DNA from: Desulfobacterales bacterium
Lineage (GTDB): Bacteria; Desulfobacterota; UBA8473
DNA: 36,857 bases
NCBI GenBank assembly: GCA_016209225.1
Contig: JACQWO010000028.1
Coordinates: forward strand, 1 to 36,857
Direction: 5' to 3'
The notes beneath the pieces are model-generated. The model saw only the letters and a program-made list of their open reading frames with translations. It made no database searches and was not told where the DNA came from. Made by a program: the position numbers and the translations under genes. Below, piece after piece: positions 19,224 to 25,893 of this stretch. Each line of letters opens with the position of its first letter. Position 1 is the first letter of the stretch.

Positions 19224-20120
19224 CTAAATGGAACTGTTTTCCGTTAAGAAACCAATAAAGGCATCTACCAGAGGGGATTTTGTCCTTCCTTTATGAAATA
19301 CAATATAGAAGTGTCTAATGAGTTCGAGACCCTGGATATTGACTTCTCGGAGCACCCCAAATCTCAATTCATCCTCCACTGCTCTCTTGGAAAGGATAGA
19401 GACGCCAAGTCCAGCCTTGATTCCTTGCCTGATTGCTTCGGTACTCCCCATTTCAGCTATAACCTTTAAGGTGTTTAAATTAATCCCAACATCAAGCAGG
19501 GCCTTTTCCATGGTTATACGGGTTCCTGAGCCTCTTTCTCTCGAAATGAAGGGTTGGTCTTTAAGCTCTTCCGGCTTTATAGAGGTTCTTGATTTCCATG
19601 GATGGGAGGGAGGGATGACTAAGATCAGTTCATCCTTAATGAATTCACTGTATTGAAGTCTTCTATCTTGAATCTTTGCTCCCACAATACCCATCTCGAT
19701 TCTGTTATTAAGCACCTGGTCTATAATCTCTTTTGTATCTCCAATCCTTAAACATATAGAAATATTTGGATAATTATCCTTAAATTTGCCGAGTAAATGG
19801 GGCAAAACATATTCTCCGGGTATATTGCTTCCCCCGATAGTAATCTCACCAGCCATTTTACCTGAAAAATTTTCTATGACTTGTTTTGCCTCAACCCTTA
19901 GTTCCAATATCTTCTTGGCATACCTGTATAAGATTTCTCCGGCTTTGGTGGGGATAACCTCTCTTCCCATCCTATCTAAAAGTCTGGCACCCAGATGATC
20001 CTCCAGAGATTTAATATGTTCGCTGATGGTAGGTTGAGTTAAGTATATTGCTTCGCCTGCCTTTGAAAAGCTACCCAGTTCAACAACCTTACAGAATATC
20101 TCTAACTGCCTTAAATCCAT
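19224..20120 (-). CDS. LysR family transcriptional regulator
   Basis: This 298-residue LysR-type regulator has an N-terminal winged helix-turn-helix (MDLRQLEIFCKVVELGSFSK, then AIYLTQPTISEHIKSLEDHL). A linker helix follows, then a type 2 periplasmic-binding-like effector domain from about residue 90 (EITIGGSNIPGEYVLP). Sequence style resembles the CysB/CysL group and the LysR regulators that accompany selenium metabolism genes in deltaproteobacteria. No selenium gene is present here, so that is only a hint. It is the last gene of the minus-strand oxidoreductase operon, 70 bp after the gamma subunit, and may regulate that operon or the divergent pan operon. Confidence 0.88.
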   Translation of the reverse strand: MDLRQLEIFCKVVELGSFSKAGEAIYLTQPTISEHIKSLEDHLGARLLDRMGREVIPTKAGEILYRYAKKILELRVEAKQVIENFSGKMAGEITIGGSNIPGEYVLPHLLGKFKDNYPNISICLRIGDTKEIIDQVLNNRIEMGIVGAKIQDRRLQYSEFIKDELILVIPPSHPWKSRTSIKPEELKDQPFISRERGSGTRITMEKALLDVGINLNTLKVIAEMGSTEAIRQGIKAGLGVSILSKRAVEDELRFGVLREVNIQGLELIRHFYIVFHKGRTKSPLVDAFIGFLTENSSI

Positions 20121-20190
20121 TGTTTTATTGTGCCCCAGAATTATAAATTATAGTGTGTATACCCCACGTGGCTTTTACACAAACAGCCAC

Positions 20191-20745
20191 CTATACTAAC
20201 CCAGCCCCTCTTTCCAATGCCTGCTTGTTGACTGGTATCAGGGATTCTTTTCCCTCTTCCCTCAGTTTCCTCTCCAATTCTGTTTCGATCTCTTCCAAGG
20301 GAAGTATATCTGTGGCTTTCGCTACAGCCCCAAGGAGAATCAGATTGGAGACCTGATTAGAACCCAAGTCTACAGCAATATCACTGGCAGGTATTTTAAA
20401 TACCTTTAAGTCTTCCCTTTTTATTTCCCTTTTTACGACAGAGCTGTCGAGGAAGAGCATCCCATTTGGTGCAACCTTCTCTTCAAACATATCCAATGAA
20501 AAGAGACTCATCACCACTACTATTTCTGGCCTTGAAATGATAGGGGAATTGATCTCTTTCTGAGAAAGAATAACTGTACAGTCTACCTCACCACCTCGCA
20601 TTGCTGCAGAATAAGAAGGGAACCATGTTACAAACTTGAAACTGTTCATGCCTGCCTGGGCTAACAATAACCCAGCAGTCAGTACCCCCTGACCTCCCAA
20701 CCCCCCTAATTTTACTACCCTTTTGGTGGTTTGAGTTACTTCCAT
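20191..20745 (-). CDS. 2-oxoacid:ferredoxin oxidoreductase gamma subunit
   Basis: This is the gamma subunit of a heterotetrameric 2-oxoacid:ferredoxin oxidoreductase (PFOR/KOR/VOR superfamily), 184 residues. The family motif GLGGQGVLTAGLLLA is at about 14-28, with WFPSYSAAMRGGEVDCTVILS near 41-61. The subunit helps bind CoA and closes the active complex. It follows the beta-subunit gene on the minus strand after a 132-bp gap. That gap contains one arm of an inverted repeat (20839-20868), unusual because the other subunit genes are closer together. Substrate cannot be determined from this subunit. Confidence 0.88.
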   Translation of the reverse strand: MEVTQTTKRVVKLGGLGGQGVLTAGLLLAQAGMNSFKFVTWFPSYSAAMRGGEVDCTVILSQKEINSPIISRPEIVVVMSLFSLDMFEEKVAPNGMLFLDSSVVKREIKREDLKVFKIPASDIAVDLGSNQVSNLILLGAVAKATDILPLEEIETELERKLREEGKESLIPVNKQALERGAGLV

Positions 20746-20838
20746 CTGTTATCCCCCCATCCCTTTTTATATTAAACGATGATAATGAGTAACCAAGTCT
20801 CTTCAAAATAACCCCTAAATACAAAACAACTTGAAAAA

Positions 20839-20868
20839 TGCCTGAAGCGAGTCCTAGATGTGTCAAAA
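20839..20868 (-). repeat. Right arm of the 30-bp inverted repeat
   Basis: On the minus strand this 30-base stretch matches 19146-19175 at 27 of 30 positions. It lies in the gap between the beta and gamma subunit genes, so the pair of arms brackets the gamma subunit and lysR genes. Confidence 0.75.
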
Positions 20869-20877
20869 GTGCCGTGA

Positions 20878-21648
20878 CTAAATGATTCTCTCAACATTTT
20901 TAAATTCACCCAGAGGATACTCTGGTATCATCTCTTCCGCTATCCTTTTCATCGCTTCACTAGCGGTTAACCTCCAGGACCCAGGACAGGCAGAGAGAAA
21001 CTCCACGATACTGTATCCAACACCATCTATCTGTTTTTGAAAGGCGACCTTTAGTGCCTTTTTTGCTCGATTATAGTTAGCCGGGGTGTTAACAGCGCAA
21101 CGGGCAGAATAGGCAACCCCCTTTAGATTAGACAAAAACTCTGCAATATGTATTGGGAAACCCGCAGTTTTTGGATCCCGGCCATCAGGGGTAGTCGTTG
21201 TTTTTTGCCCCAGTAGGGTTGTTGGGGCCAATTGACCGCCAGTTGTTCCATAGTTGGCATTGTTCAAGAAGATAGTGGTGATCTTTTCAAAACGATTTAT
21301 TGCATTTATTATACATCCCATCCCTATAGCTGCCAGGTCTCCATCTCCTTGTATATTAAATACTATTGGTTTCCCAAAATGAGCATGCTTTATCCCGGTA
21401 GCAACGGCAGGGGACCTTCCGTGGGCGCTGTCTATAAAGTCAAGATCGAAATACTGGGTGTTAATAAACGTGCAGCCTACCGAAGAAACGCCTATGGTAT
21501 CACCCTCAATATCCATCTCTTCTATAACCTCAGCAAGGAGAGAGGTTATAATCCCGTAGTGACAACCTGGGCAGTACATTAATGGGAGGTCTTTTTTTAG
21601 CCTGGGTCTGCCGTATACCTTGATTTTTTCCTTCTTATTTTTTTTCAT
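20878..21648 (-). CDS. 2-oxoacid:ferredoxin oxidoreductase beta subunit (thiamine diphosphate)
   Basis: The beta subunit binds thiamine diphosphate and carries out the decarboxylation. It is 256 residues long, with YCPGCHYG (Cys26, Cys29) and SSVGCTF (Cys59) near the N-terminus. The thiamine diphosphate/Mg motif starts at GDGDLAAIGMG (101-111) and continues to NNANYGTTGGQ. The AHGRSPAVATGIK stretch is typical of KOR/VOR beta chains. Its start overlaps the alpha-subunit stop by 4 bp, so the two are coupled. KorB and VorA are the likely equivalents; the exact 2-oxoacid is not determined. Confidence 0.9.
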   Translation of the reverse strand: MKKNKKEKIKVYGRPRLKKDLPLMYCPGCHYGIITSLLAEVIEEMDIEGDTIGVSSVGCTFINTQYFDLDFIDSAHGRSPAVATGIKHAHFGKPIVFNIQGDGDLAAIGMGCIINAINRFEKITTIFLNNANYGTTGGQLAPTTLLGQKTTTTPDGRDPKTAGFPIHIAEFLSNLKGVAYSARCAVNTPANYNRAKKALKVAFQKQIDGVGYSIVEFLSACPGSWRLTASEAMKRIAEEMIPEYPLGEFKNVERII

Positions 21649-22718
21649 GTCAGCTTCTTAACCTCCTCAATAACCCTGTCAGGGAATATCATGCCCCCAG
21701 GCCCTGGTAGGTGACGTGCCGTTCCTCCAAGGAAATAGACTTCACCTCTTCCTTCCACTGCGCACCGGACATCTTCTATCATCTGTTCTAAGCCATCTTC
21801 TACAACCAGAAACTTATTGGCATGAGATGTTAAATCCTTTATGGGTTTATAAGGAAACGGCCAGAGGGTTATAGGGCGAATCAGCCCTACTTTGAAACCC
21901 TCTGACCGCGCTATATCAACAGCCTCCTTGGATATTCGAGCGGAAGAGCCATAAGCCACCAGGATAAAATTGGCATCTTCAGTCATGTAATTTTCGTATC
22001 TGACCTCATTGGCTTCAATCTCGTGAAACTTATCTCCCAGTACCTTTAGCCCATCTCTGGTTGGTCTTGTAAGTAAATTAGAACAGGATATAAAATCCCG
22101 TCTTCCCCCTTTATGGGCTTTGCCTTTTAGCGCCCAGTCTTTTTCAGGGAGGGAGTCAAACTCAAGGGTTCTTAACTCTATGGATTCTGCCATTTCAGCT
22201 ATTATGCCATCAGAAAGAACCAATACCAGATTCCTGTATTTATCTGCTAAGTAAAAGGCTAACTGAATGAATTCAAAACACTCTTTAACAGAGGCCGGGG
22301 CAAGAACAATATTCCTGTACCCGCCATGCCCCCCTCCTTTGGTAACCTGCAGATAGTCCATCTGGGCTGTCTGGGTGGTCCCCATCCCTGGCCCACCTCG
22401 CTGAACATTGACTACCACACACGGCAACTCAGCCATTGCAATGTGTGAAATACCTTCCTGCATTAAACTGAATCCAACACTGGCTGTGGAAGTCATTGCC
22501 CTTACTCCGGCAGCAGCAGCACCGTATACCATATTTATTGAAGCAGTTTCGCTTTCCGATTGAACGAAAACACCTCCTATTTTGGGGAGCTCTCCGGCAA
22601 AGAACTCTGTGCATTGGTTCTGAGGCGTAATGGGATAGCCAAAAAAGTGCCTACAGCCCGCATAGATGGCTCCATGTCCGATGGCTTCATTCCCCGTGGT
22701 CAAAATTCGTTTAATCAT
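21645..22718 (-). CDS. vorB: 2-oxoacid:ferredoxin oxidoreductase alpha subunit, VorB/KorA-like
   Basis: The alpha subunit supplies the pyrimidine-binding domain of a reversible, CoA-dependent 2-oxoacid:ferredoxin oxidoreductase. The 357-residue protein starts TTGNEAIGHGAIYAGCRHFF and shows GYPITPQNQ, the ESETASINMVYGAAAAGVRAMT block, QRGGPGMGTTQTAQMDYLQ and GGGHGGYRNIVLAPASVKE. The wording closely resembles proteins annotated as 3-methyl-2-oxobutanoate dehydrogenase subunit VorB, but 2-oxoglutarate (KorA) enzymes are similar. The operon order (ferredoxin, alpha, beta, gamma) is that of four-subunit Vor/Kor. Its genomic partner, the divergent pan operon, consumes 3-methyl-2-oxobutanoate, which suits the Vor reading. 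Confidence 0.85.
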   Translation of the reverse strand: MIKRILTTGNEAIGHGAIYAGCRHFFGYPITPQNQCTEFFAGELPKIGGVFVQSESETASINMVYGAAAAGVRAMTSTASVGFSLMQEGISHIAMAELPCVVVNVQRGGPGMGTTQTAQMDYLQVTKGGGHGGYRNIVLAPASVKECFEFIQLAFYLADKYRNLVLVLSDGIIAEMAESIELRTLEFDSLPEKDWALKGKAHKGGRRDFISCSNLLTRPTRDGLKVLGDKFHEIEANEVRYENYMTEDANFILVAYGSSARISKEAVDIARSEGFKVGLIRPITLWPFPYKPIKDLTSHANKFLVVEDGLEQMIEDVRCAVEGRGEVYFLGGTARHLPGPGGMIFPDRVIEEVKKLT

Positions 22719-23257: not shown

Positions 23258-23431
23258 TTGACACAATTGGTTTAATGTGTTAGGAGGTAAAAATACTAGA
23301 AAGATTCAATCTATTGCACCGCTTGGATCCAAATATTTGGACTGAGACGGAAGGAACTTCGGTAGAGTCAATAAATGGGATAGTTGATCAGGGGAACTCC
23401 TCCTAGGTCTATTTGTTAACCCATTAATTAG
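23258..23431 (+). promoter_or_regulatory. Structured leader upstream of the moaD-like/pan operon
   Basis: A TTGACA box at 23258-23263 is followed by about 170 bases that contain several short hairpins, including TCCAAA-TA-TTTGGA near 23326-23339 and GAAGG-AA-CTTC nearby. The leader ends at a strong intrinsic terminator only about 20 bases before the first gene, an arrangement expected of an attenuator or riboswitch. A 'pan' RNA motif is known upstream of pantothenate genes in some deltaproteobacteria and is one candidate, but I could not confirm its consensus. No clear -10 box was found for the TTGACA. Confidence 0.45.
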
Positions 23432-23432
23432 A

Positions 23433-23466
23433 AAGCCTTCTGGACCAGTCCAGAAGGCTTTTTTAT
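23433..23466 (+). terminator. Strong intrinsic terminator before the moaD-like gene
   Basis: AAGCCTTCTGGAC at 23433-23445 has its perfect complement at 23448-23460, immediately followed by a T-rich run (TTTTTTATTTT). It stops transcription just before the moaD-like/panB gene set unless an alternative fold in the leader prevents it. Confidence 0.9.
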
Positions 23467-23482
23467 TTTAAGGTTTTAAGTA

Positions 23483-23761
23483 ATGGCAGAAGTGAATATT
23501 CAAGGCATATTTGGAAATCGCTTTTTAAAGAAAAAATTTATTTTAAACTTAAAAGAAGGTGTTCCCATCAAAGAGGTTTTTTCAAAGATCGACAGTCGTT
23601 TAAAGATCAAATTCTTCAAGAAGAACCTTAAGGGCTTGCCTGACAGGATTGTAATCTTGATCAATGGTCAACCTGTCCGCTCGCCTTCAGAGAGCGATAT
23701 TTCTATAGAAAATAACGATCAAATATCTATCTTGAGGATTATCGCTGGAGATAAAGGTTAA
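23483..23761 (+). CDS. MoaD/ThiS family ubiquitin-like protein without a terminal Gly-Gly
   Basis: This 92-residue protein has the beta-grasp pattern of MoaD/ThiS sulfur carriers: a first strand pair, LKEGVPIKEVF helix start, VILINGQPV and NNDQISILRIIAG at the C-terminus. Family members used as sulfur carriers end in Gly-Gly; this one ends in AGDKG, so thiocarboxylation would not be expected by the usual route. It lies 40 bp before panB and shares its leader, so it may have a role linked to pantothenate synthesis or simply be co-transcribed. No adenylating MoeB/ThiF partner is in the window. Family assignment is fair; function is unknown. Confidence 0.7.
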   Translation: MAEVNIQGIFGNRFLKKKFILNLKEGVPIKEVFSKIDSRLKIKFFKKNLKGLPDRIVILINGQPVRSPSESDISIENNDQISILRIIAGDKG

Positions 23762-23801: not shown

Positions 23802-24602
23802 ATGGGAAAGATAACGATCTTAGATTTACAAAGGTTGAAGGACGAAGGGGACAAGATGACGATGCTTACTGCTTATGATTACCCTACTGCCAGGATACTT
23901 GATGCCTGTGGGGTGGATATCCTATTAGTTGGTGATTCAGTAGGTAATGTCATTCTAGGACAGGCTAATACTCTACCAGTATCTATTGAGGACATGATCC
24001 ACCACACCAAGGCAGTTGCCAGGGCTTGCAAGAATGCGCTGATTGTCATAGACATGCCGTTTATGTCTTATCAGACGAGCATAGAGGATGCCAAGAGGAA
24101 TGCGGGGAGGATGATAAAGGAGAGTGGGGCTGAGGCTGTAAAACTTGAGGGTGGAAGCAATATGGAGGATACTATCAAGGCTATTACAGATATAGATATA
24201 CCAGTGATGGCCCATATTGGTTTGACACCCCAGTCAGTTCATAGAATGGGAGGCTATCGGGTTCAAGGAAAAGAGGATAAACAGAGAGAAAGACTCCTAG
24301 CCGATGCTCTGGCAGTTGAAAGGGCAGGGGCATTCTCCGTCGTTCTGGAAGCAATCCCCGCTAATCTGGCAGAGGAGATTACTAGACGGCTAAAAATACC
24401 TACTATAGGTATCGGAGCTGGTGTGGGATGTGATGGTCAGGTGTTGGTGATCAACGATTTATTAGGGCTATCTGGTGAATTCCGGCCGAAGTTTGTAAAG
24501 AAATACGTAAACCTCGAGGAGGCGATCTCAAAAGCCGTCAAAGAATATATCTCAGAGGTGAAGAGCAAAGCCTTTCCCAGCGATGAACATAGCTTTCATT
24601 GA
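23802..24602 (+). CDS. panB: 3-methyl-2-oxobutanoate hydroxymethyltransferase PanB
   Basis: PanB transfers a hydroxymethyl group from methylenetetrahydrofolate to 3-methyl-2-oxobutanoate, making ketopantoate. The 266-residue protein shows [73 protein letters not shown] and [20 protein letters not shown], covering the metal and substrate sites. Length is standard. ATG 23802 follows a GAGGGGGG stretch. It is followed by panC and panD, so three of the four pantothenate steps are here; the ketopantoate reductase panE is not in the window. Confidence 0.97.
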
Positions 24603-24635: not shown

Positions 24636-25487
24636 ATGAAGACATTAAGTAGCGTCAAAAAAATGCAAGAGTTTGCAGAGAACTCACGGTTAAGTGGTAA
24701 GGCTATTGCCCTGGTCCCAACGATGGGTTTTCTCCACCAGGGCCATCTTAAACTCATGGAAGAGGGAAGAAAAAGGGCTGATACTTTAATAATCAGTATA
24801 TTCGTTAATCCTACTCAATTCGGTGTAGGAGAAGACCTTGAAAAATACCCCAGGGATATGGAGAGAGATAAAAAGTTGGCAGAGGGAGTTGGGGTGGATA
24901 TTATATTTGCGCCCCCTTCTTCTGAGATGTATCCCAAAGGCTATCAGACCTATGTCAATGTAAAAGATGTGACCAGGAATCTGTGTGGTGTTTCCAGACC
25001 AACCCATTTCAGAGGGGTAACAACAGTAGTCGCAAAGTTGTTCAATACTGTTAAGCCGCATATCGCCATTTTTGGAGAGAAGGATTTTCAGCAGTTAGTT
25101 ACCATTAGGCAGATGGTAAAAGACCTGAATTTTGATATAGAGATCGTGGGAATTCCTACTGTTCGAGAGAAGAATGGTCTGGCGATGAGCTCTAGAAATG
25201 CTTACTTGACCACGGAAGAGCGTAAAGCCGCCCTAAGTTTGAATCAGGCAATATCTATTGCAAGAGACATCCTCAGATCAGGAGAAAGAAAATCCGAAAG
25301 TATTCTTCGAGAGGTTAAGAAAAGAATTGAATCAGAGAGTTTAACTGACATCGATTATGTTAAAATGTGTGACTCTCAAACATTGGAGGACATTGAAGAA
25401 ATCGATAGAGATGCAGTCTTGGCGATGGCAGTGAAGGTTGGCAGGACAAGGCTTATTGATAATTGTACTTTTGGAAGAGGAGAATGA
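24636..25487 (+). CDS. panC: Pantothenate synthetase PanC
   Basis: PanC condenses pantoate with beta-alanine using ATP through a pantoyl-adenylate. The 283-residue protein has the nucleotidyltransferase motif [15 protein letters not shown], the [20 protein letters not shown] stretch and [30 protein letters not shown] and the KMSKS-like [11 protein letters not shown] loop complete the ATP site. Length is normal. It begins 33 bp after panB; panD starts shortly after its stop. Confidence 0.97.
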
Positions 25488-25515
25488 AAAATCTCGTGAA
25501 GGAGGGAGAGGTGAC

Positions 25516-25893
25516 GTGCAAAGAATCATGTTGAAATCCAAAATACACCGGGCGACGGTTACAGACGCTAATCTGGATTATGAAGGAAGTATTACCATTG
25601 ATAAACTCCTGATGGAAGATGCAGGCATAATCCCCTACGAAGCGGTTCATATCTATAATATCTCCAATGGTGAGAGGTTTGAAACGTATGCCATTAAAGG
25701 GGAGGCTAACTCTGGCACCATTTGCCTCAATGGGGCTGCTGCCCATAAGGTCAGCGTTGGTGACTTAATAATAATTGCCAATTATGCGAACTACGAGGCG
25801 GAGGAGGCAAGAAACCACAAACCTAAACTTATATATGTTGATCTAAATAATAGGAAGATAGAAAAGAAACCCTCATATATCCAGTCACTTTAA
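25516..25893 (+). CDS. panD: Aspartate 1-decarboxylase PanD
   Basis: PanD makes beta-alanine from aspartate and is a pyruvoyl enzyme formed by self-cleavage. The sequence [20 protein letters not shown], followed by the Gly-Ser cleavage site in YEGSITID, is diagnostic; the [19 protein letters not shown] block follows. I start at GTG 25516 because GGAGGG lies about ten bases upstream and this gives the usual MQRIMLKSK beginning and 126 residues. The frame is open further into panC, but upstream residues have no family counterpart. With panB and panC it completes the pantoate/beta-alanine branch. Confidence 0.96.

Follow-up and report, generated by a model that had tools for sequence, protein, structure and literature searches.

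A single-hairpin pan RNA as the probable transcription attenuator of a vitamin B5 operon in a Desulfobacterales bacterium

The vitamin B5 (pantothenate) operon of a Desulfobacterales bacterium is preceded by a leader which, judged from sequence comparison, is very probably a single-hairpin pan RNA (RF01749) that acts as a transcription attenuator. By the window we mean the whole 36,857-nt stretch of DNA that was analysed. On its plus strand, a promoter-like pair is followed by a hairpin-rich leader, a strong terminator, a ThiS/MoaD-like gene, panB, panC and panD. Family scans confirmed the moaD-like/panBCD gene identities that a first-pass annotation had read from the sequence. The features of the locus are:

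23258..23286, plus strand: probable promoter, with a -35 element TTGACA (23258-23263), a 17-nt spacer and a weak -10 element TAGGAG (23281-23286) preceded by TGT
23303..23369, plus strand: outer helix GATTC/GAGTC enclosing the pan hairpin in the predicted fold, visible by eye in two members of the genus as well, G001 and G003
23318..23354, plus strand: single pan hairpin, with bulged A residues at 23327 and 23347 and a 3′ tail AAGG at 23351-23354
23348..23354, plus strand: putative switching strand CGGAAGG, which could pair through CGG with CCG at 23319-23321 (pan hairpin) or as a whole with CCTTCTG at 23436-23442 (antiterminator)
23375..23424, plus strand: genus-specific hairpin between pan and terminator in the predicted fold, its sequence kept, by eye, in the congeners G001, G003 and G004 (four congeners including the window)
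23431..23462, plus strand: intrinsic terminator stem-loop with a 14-bp stem, a 4-nt loop and a U-rich tail to about 23470
23483..23761, plus strand: ThiS/MoaD-like protein of 92 aa (Pfam ThiS, 5.2e-06)
23802..24602, plus strand: panB, ketopantoate hydroxymethyltransferase, by gene family assignment
24636..25487, plus strand: panC, pantothenate synthetase, by gene family assignment
25438..25893 (ORF as listed), plus strand: panD, aspartate decarboxylase, whose true start is probably further in

The first-pass annotation had named the pan motif as a candidate, to be checked with its covariance model, and had allowed for a new RNA. The RF01749 model matched the window at 23261-23354 with 41.1 bits, above the curated Rfam gathering cut-off of 36.2, which settles the candidate in favour of the known family and leaves no need for a new one. 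In the passages of Weinberg et al. 2010 (PMC2864571) drawn on here, the pan motif, located upstream of pan genes, is described as a stem that carries two conserved bulged As and usually occurs in tandem. The window leader likewise has a stem broken by two conserved bulged A residues and lies upstream of panB, panC and panD; it differs in carrying one hairpin, whereas most members are described there as tandem, an arrangement that is usual in the motif and not required. Because the first hairpin of the Rfam match coincides with the probable promoter and has none of the conserved bulges, the bulged As being in the second hairpin only, the window represents a single-hairpin form. All other Rfam families scored below their cut-offs in the leader. 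The L10_leader (RF00557) gave a weak match at 23323-23473 that covers the terminator (30.1 bits), and was rejected for a score below its cut-off of 44 and for the wrong gene context.

The fold of the 213-nt interval from the promoter to the end of the U-rich tail was predicted at -63.6 kcal/mol, compared to -47.6 ± 4.0 for 200 dinucleotide shuffles, none of which was as stable (z -3.97). For the hairpin itself, an alignment of 55 distinct pan hairpins showed pairing in 96.6% of cells, with both sides changed in 6 of 12 pairs, and its covariation score was reached by 0 of 500 shuffles. When partners were slid by 1-3 columns, pairing dropped to 18-49%, a contrast that is partly expected because the consensus was the source of the structure. 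The columns of A23327 and A23347 were invariant in all 55 hairpins, and the pairs that flank them covaried. A model built from the single pan hairpin (R1) gave 52.2 bits for the window hairpin, whose sequence is in its training set, and matched once in the window genome. No other copy of the leader was found in that genome, the sole further match being the terminator palindrome on the opposite strand.

We then compared pan loci across the phylum, taking the RF01749 matches at E <= 0.001, which were present in 45 of 395 genomes (30 of them over the cut-off). A promoter-like pair was detected no more than 70 nt upstream of the hairpin in 28/45 loci, compared to 6.7 expected from shuffles; the remaining 17 include some in which a genuine first hairpin is visible by eye. 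In the window, TTGACA and TAGGAG together reach 9-of-12 agreement, and we infer that the leader RNA starts near 23293. The interval 23258-23470, which the first-pass annotation had taken as leader, thus holds as promoter plus leader, its first ~35 nt (TTGACA-N17-TAGGAG) probably not being part of the leader RNA.

The strand opposite and upstream of the leader carries a ferredoxin-like ORF, recognised by eye from its cysteine clusters, and 2-oxoacid:ferredoxin oxidoreductase subunits, of which alpha scores above the NCBIfam cut-off of the VorB subfamily model. These oxidoreductase subunits and a LysR regulator occupy 19224-22718 on the minus strand, divergent from the pan operon. 2-Oxoisovalerate is the substrate of PanB, and its use may possibly be shared between the divergent oxidoreductase and PanB. 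Close to the start of the window, at 202-413, lies a Cobalamin riboswitch (RF00174, 87.9 bits).

The hairpin-rich leader ending in a terminator just before the first gene, as the first-pass annotation had described it, was readily seen: the terminator stem is near-perfect and ends 20 nt upstream of the ATG at 23483. Across the 45 loci, a terminator-like hairpin followed the motif in 41 with a stricter first script and in 45 with a looser one (within 220 nt), and panB or panC lay downstream in every case, in G006 at +2450 behind another gene. The comparison of leaders in relatives that the annotation had proposed revealed complementarity between the 3′ edge of the pan hairpin (ACGGAAGG) and the 5′ arm of the next terminator, and showed that the two change together. 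Thus, ACGAAAGG is accompanied by CCUUUCGU in G134, G310 and G346, GGACGG by CCGUCC in G103, AGACCAGAA by UUCUGGUCU in G140, and CGGGG by CCCCG in G117. The 11-nt leader stretch that pairs best with the arm was within 4 nt of the tail in 42/45 loci and elsewhere in 3/45. Tail pairing was absent in G245 and, as cut by the script, in G011. Pairing with the tail reached -7 kcal/mol for 41/45 pan terminators, compared to 14/102 other terminators in the same stretches. Part of this complementarity comes cheaply because GCC...GGC terminator arms are common, and only covariation argues beyond it.

Covariation was evaluated by assigning tails to arms at random, each of 21 families being represented by one locus in repeated draws. 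Between 42 and 49 of 10000 permutations were as good as the own pairing when the arm alone was considered, and 0-2 of 10000 when the loop was added, counts that are not strict probabilities because the sequences are related. For the 11 non-canonical tails, one per family, the numbers were 32/10000 (arm) and 1/10000 (arm plus loop). A replication set of 54 further sites gave 88/10000 and 0/10000, respectively, and its 23 distinct non-canonical tails gave 289/10000 and 3/10000. The arm-only replication is modest, partly because G013, G192, G114 and G372 show no apparent leader terminator, so that the script took a hairpin further down. The 5′ arm of the terminator can pair with an upstream segment of the leader in a manner supported by covariation, and this, with a terminator-like hairpin at all 45 loci, supports the attenuator that had been proposed for the moaD-like/panBCD operon.

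Growing transcripts were also folded at equilibrium. In the full-length model of the window, the base of the pan hairpin stayed paired and the antiterminator was not favoured when only the 5′ arm of the terminator was out (probability 0.00-0.01); the antiterminator rose to 0.97-0.98 once half of the 3′ arm was out, and gave way with the full terminator out, when the base of the pan hairpin was back at 0.95-0.99. Of five transcript lengths, the antiterminator won at only one. When all 45 leaders were treated with a simplified model, the tail was predicted to be mostly paired to the arm in 33, the 12 without dominant tail-arm pairing including the window (0.41). The switching device would thus be finely balanced, and whatever keeps the base of the pan hairpin closed would shift it towards termination.

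These data point to the following mechanism. CGGAAGG, made up of the 3′ strand of the hairpin and the conserved tail, would have two alternative partners, one inside the hairpin and the other in the 5′ arm of the terminator. In a free hairpin, the tail would capture the arm to form an antiterminator, and the polymerase would continue into the operon. A signal of sufficient pantothenate or CoA would hold the base of the hairpin closed, leaving the arm free, so that the terminator forms and transcription stops. The pan hairpin would then be an anti-antiterminator which, once stabilised, lets the terminator form, and the signal may bind at the two bulged adenines, a contact point suggested by their invariance. 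The alternative pairing in the cell, the off direction of the switch, and a small molecule or a protein as the signal are what we infer from the sequences. In pyr leaders, an anti-antiterminator stabilised by PyrR precedes an antiterminator and a terminator. The proposed order in the window is the same; in contrast to those leaders, the window has neither PyrR nor pyrimidine genes, and is not a member of that group. The pairing of tail and terminator arm is not mentioned in the Weinberg et al. 2010 passages on which we drew, and no paper beyond that one was found on the mechanism or metabolite binding of the motif.

A terminator alone would be enough for constant low expression, and the locus could accordingly be read as a plain roadblock or insulator preceded by a hairpin that serves stability, with no switching at all. 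The covariation of tail and arm, together with an order of elements that is conserved in 45/45 loci, makes this improbable. An assignment of the terminator to a transcription unit further upstream can be practically dismissed, since the ferredoxin-like ORF and the 2-oxoacid:ferredoxin oxidoreductase lie on the other strand and are directed away from it, and no point in support of such an origin was found. Attenuation by the pan hairpin remains the preferred reading, and by eye the element appears to have a second output. In L126 (Dehalococcoidia) the tail GGAAGG stands directly before the ATG of panB, whilst in G013 and G214 the sequence AAGGAGG either overlaps the tail or comes after it; no leader terminator is apparent in these three, and there the hairpin would act on translation.

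The R1 model matched in 165/395 genomes of the phylum, compared to 45 with RF01749. Among 60 further R1 sites, chosen from the listed places, 48 had a pan gene downstream, 11 had hxl genes and one (G189b) had neither. A scan of named genomes for the pattern with a fixed tail returned at least 118 stretches, of which 80 loci were examined. Among these listed matches, a terminator-like hairpin was present in 76/80 and a pan gene in 71/80; the other nine were four stretches that end early, two Clostridia (L083 and L148) and three loci with hxl genes. In the Clostridia (L083:2968-6009 and L148:1-3017, both minus strand), the pan RNA stands before genes for a BioY-like protein, an ECF S-component, a type III pantothenate kinase and dusB, identified by family scan in L083 and by similar sequence starts in L148. 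In L103 and L116, the first gene after the pan RNA encodes a Rossmann/DUF2520 protein, perhaps another ketopantoate reductase, and is followed by panB; L123 and the second sites L229, L231 and L234 have a similar first gene, judged by sequence start or spacing only.

The sensor of the signal could be a protein or the RNA itself, and we hold the two to be equally possible. On the one hand, with a likelihood a little short of even, the pan hairpin would be the binding site of a protein, a trans-acting repressor comparable to PyrR on pyr leaders, with no small molecule contacting the RNA. Its shortness, the invariant sequence inside its helices, the two bulged As and the tandem arrangement of many members are in keeping with this, and Weinberg et al. 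2010 (PMC2864571), in the passages drawn on here, proposed a dimeric protein as the target. However, many loci of the window kind carry one hairpin and not two, and pan RNAs are also found on loci without panBCD (those with BioY-like, ECF S component, coaX and dusB genes, and those with hxl genes), which makes strictly local feedback by PanB, PanC or PanD unlikely. On the other hand, and with the same slightly-below-even likelihood, the hairpin would be a metabolite aptamer, a riboswitch for pantothenate, CoA or a precursor. In its favour are a regulon whose synthesis, uptake-like and kinase genes suit a vitamin or cofactor as the signal, and the use of two expression platforms, the terminator and a tail adjoining or inside the ribosome-binding site (L126, G013 and G214); against it, a hairpin of 36 nt whose loop varies would make a very small aptamer, and there is no conserved pseudoknot or second element.

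The ThiS/MoaD-like protein was also considered as a sensor and rejected as a general one, because its gene occurs in only 4/45 loci: as first gene in the window genome (G000), G001 and G003, and at +2138 in G006. In G006/L135, L139 and G005, the ThiS-like gene comes after a 663-aa gene, which is an aldehyde ferredoxin oxidoreductase in L135 (Pfam) and was recognised in L139 by similar sequence start only and in G005 by spacing only. This neighbour accounts for the presence of the ThiS-like gene better than a sensor role does. In the family relatives L135, L139 and L237, the 663-aa gene lies between the pan RNA and ThiS-like/panB, and it is absent in the genus of the window. The diglycine tail of the window protein is interrupted, its C-terminus being AGDKG, compared to AGG in G003, G001 and L139.

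Common to the hxl sites are hxlB (6-phospho-3-hexuloisomerase) and a fusion gene, hxlA-rraA, that joins 3-hexulose-6-phosphate synthase to an RraA-like aldolase domain; pan RNA is often found upstream of this pair in species that lack PanB (L224, L226, L261, L264-L269, L276, L277, L285, L286 and L293-L296, with L101, L106 and L125 as further pan RNA-hxl loci). Among the 395 genomes, the fusion was present in 24 and PanB (PF02548) in 343, with an overlap of 0, so that 24 of the 52 genomes without PanB carry the fusion (Fisher 2.6e-24, ignoring kinship; the 24 genomes fall in five families, and independent events may therefore be few). PanC was kept by 23/24 fusion genomes, compared to 13/28 of the other PanB-less genomes. 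R1 matched directly upstream of hxlB in 17/24 fusion genomes (15 by coordinates plus G317 and G214), G085 and G391 had weaker candidates there, and G008 and four genomes of family f18 had none. In the 23 loci compared, and also in G047, hxlB lies ahead of the fusion. In G139 (L226:2-895, minus strand), the hxl pair is followed in the same direction by a gene encoding ketopantoate reductase (TIGR00745, 281 bits against a cut-off of 141). Of 14 control genomes, 11 have PanB; that of Methanosarcina acetivorans is not one of them and carries the fusion.

This distribution suggests that the fusion and HxlB may replace PanB as the source of ketopantoate. Working in reverse, HxlB and HxlA would liberate formaldehyde from fructose 6-phosphate, and in place of PanB the RraA-like domain would join this formaldehyde to 2-oxoisovalerate; the window operon itself carries an ordinary PanB. 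The chances seem to us evenly balanced that pan RNA marks here an unrecognised, folate-independent route to ketopantoate that replaces PanB. Alternatively, the hxl genes could supply pentose phosphate or remove formaldehyde, ketopantoate coming from another enzyme, a reading against which the pan RNA upstream of the hxl genes speaks. A structure search with one fusion returned 3-hexulose-6-phosphate synthases, and its second half led to aldolase/RraA-type chains. The D-x20-RD motif, which we take to be the aldolase motif expected in the RraA-like domain, was absent from the 23/23 fusions examined, which by eye have an invariant E and RD at that spacing instead; its absence neither supports nor excludes aldolase activity. 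A literature search on the replacement of PanB returned nothing to the point, and PMC6650551, in the parts consulted, does not treat it.

All in all, the leader looks, on comparative grounds, like a regulated attenuator of a known family in a less described single-hairpin form, with a mechanism supported by covariation. The covarying antiterminator gives the pan motif a mechanism, none having been found in the literature since 2010, that precise mutations can test. With the single-hairpin model, pan RNA is several times commoner in the phylum than the two-hairpin Rfam model reports, and its broader regulon restricts the candidate signals to the pantothenate/CoA pathway. Through the hxl genes of PanB-less genomes, the RNA family also points to a possible replacement, a concrete candidate for the enzyme that would form ketopantoate in organisms with PanC but without PanB.
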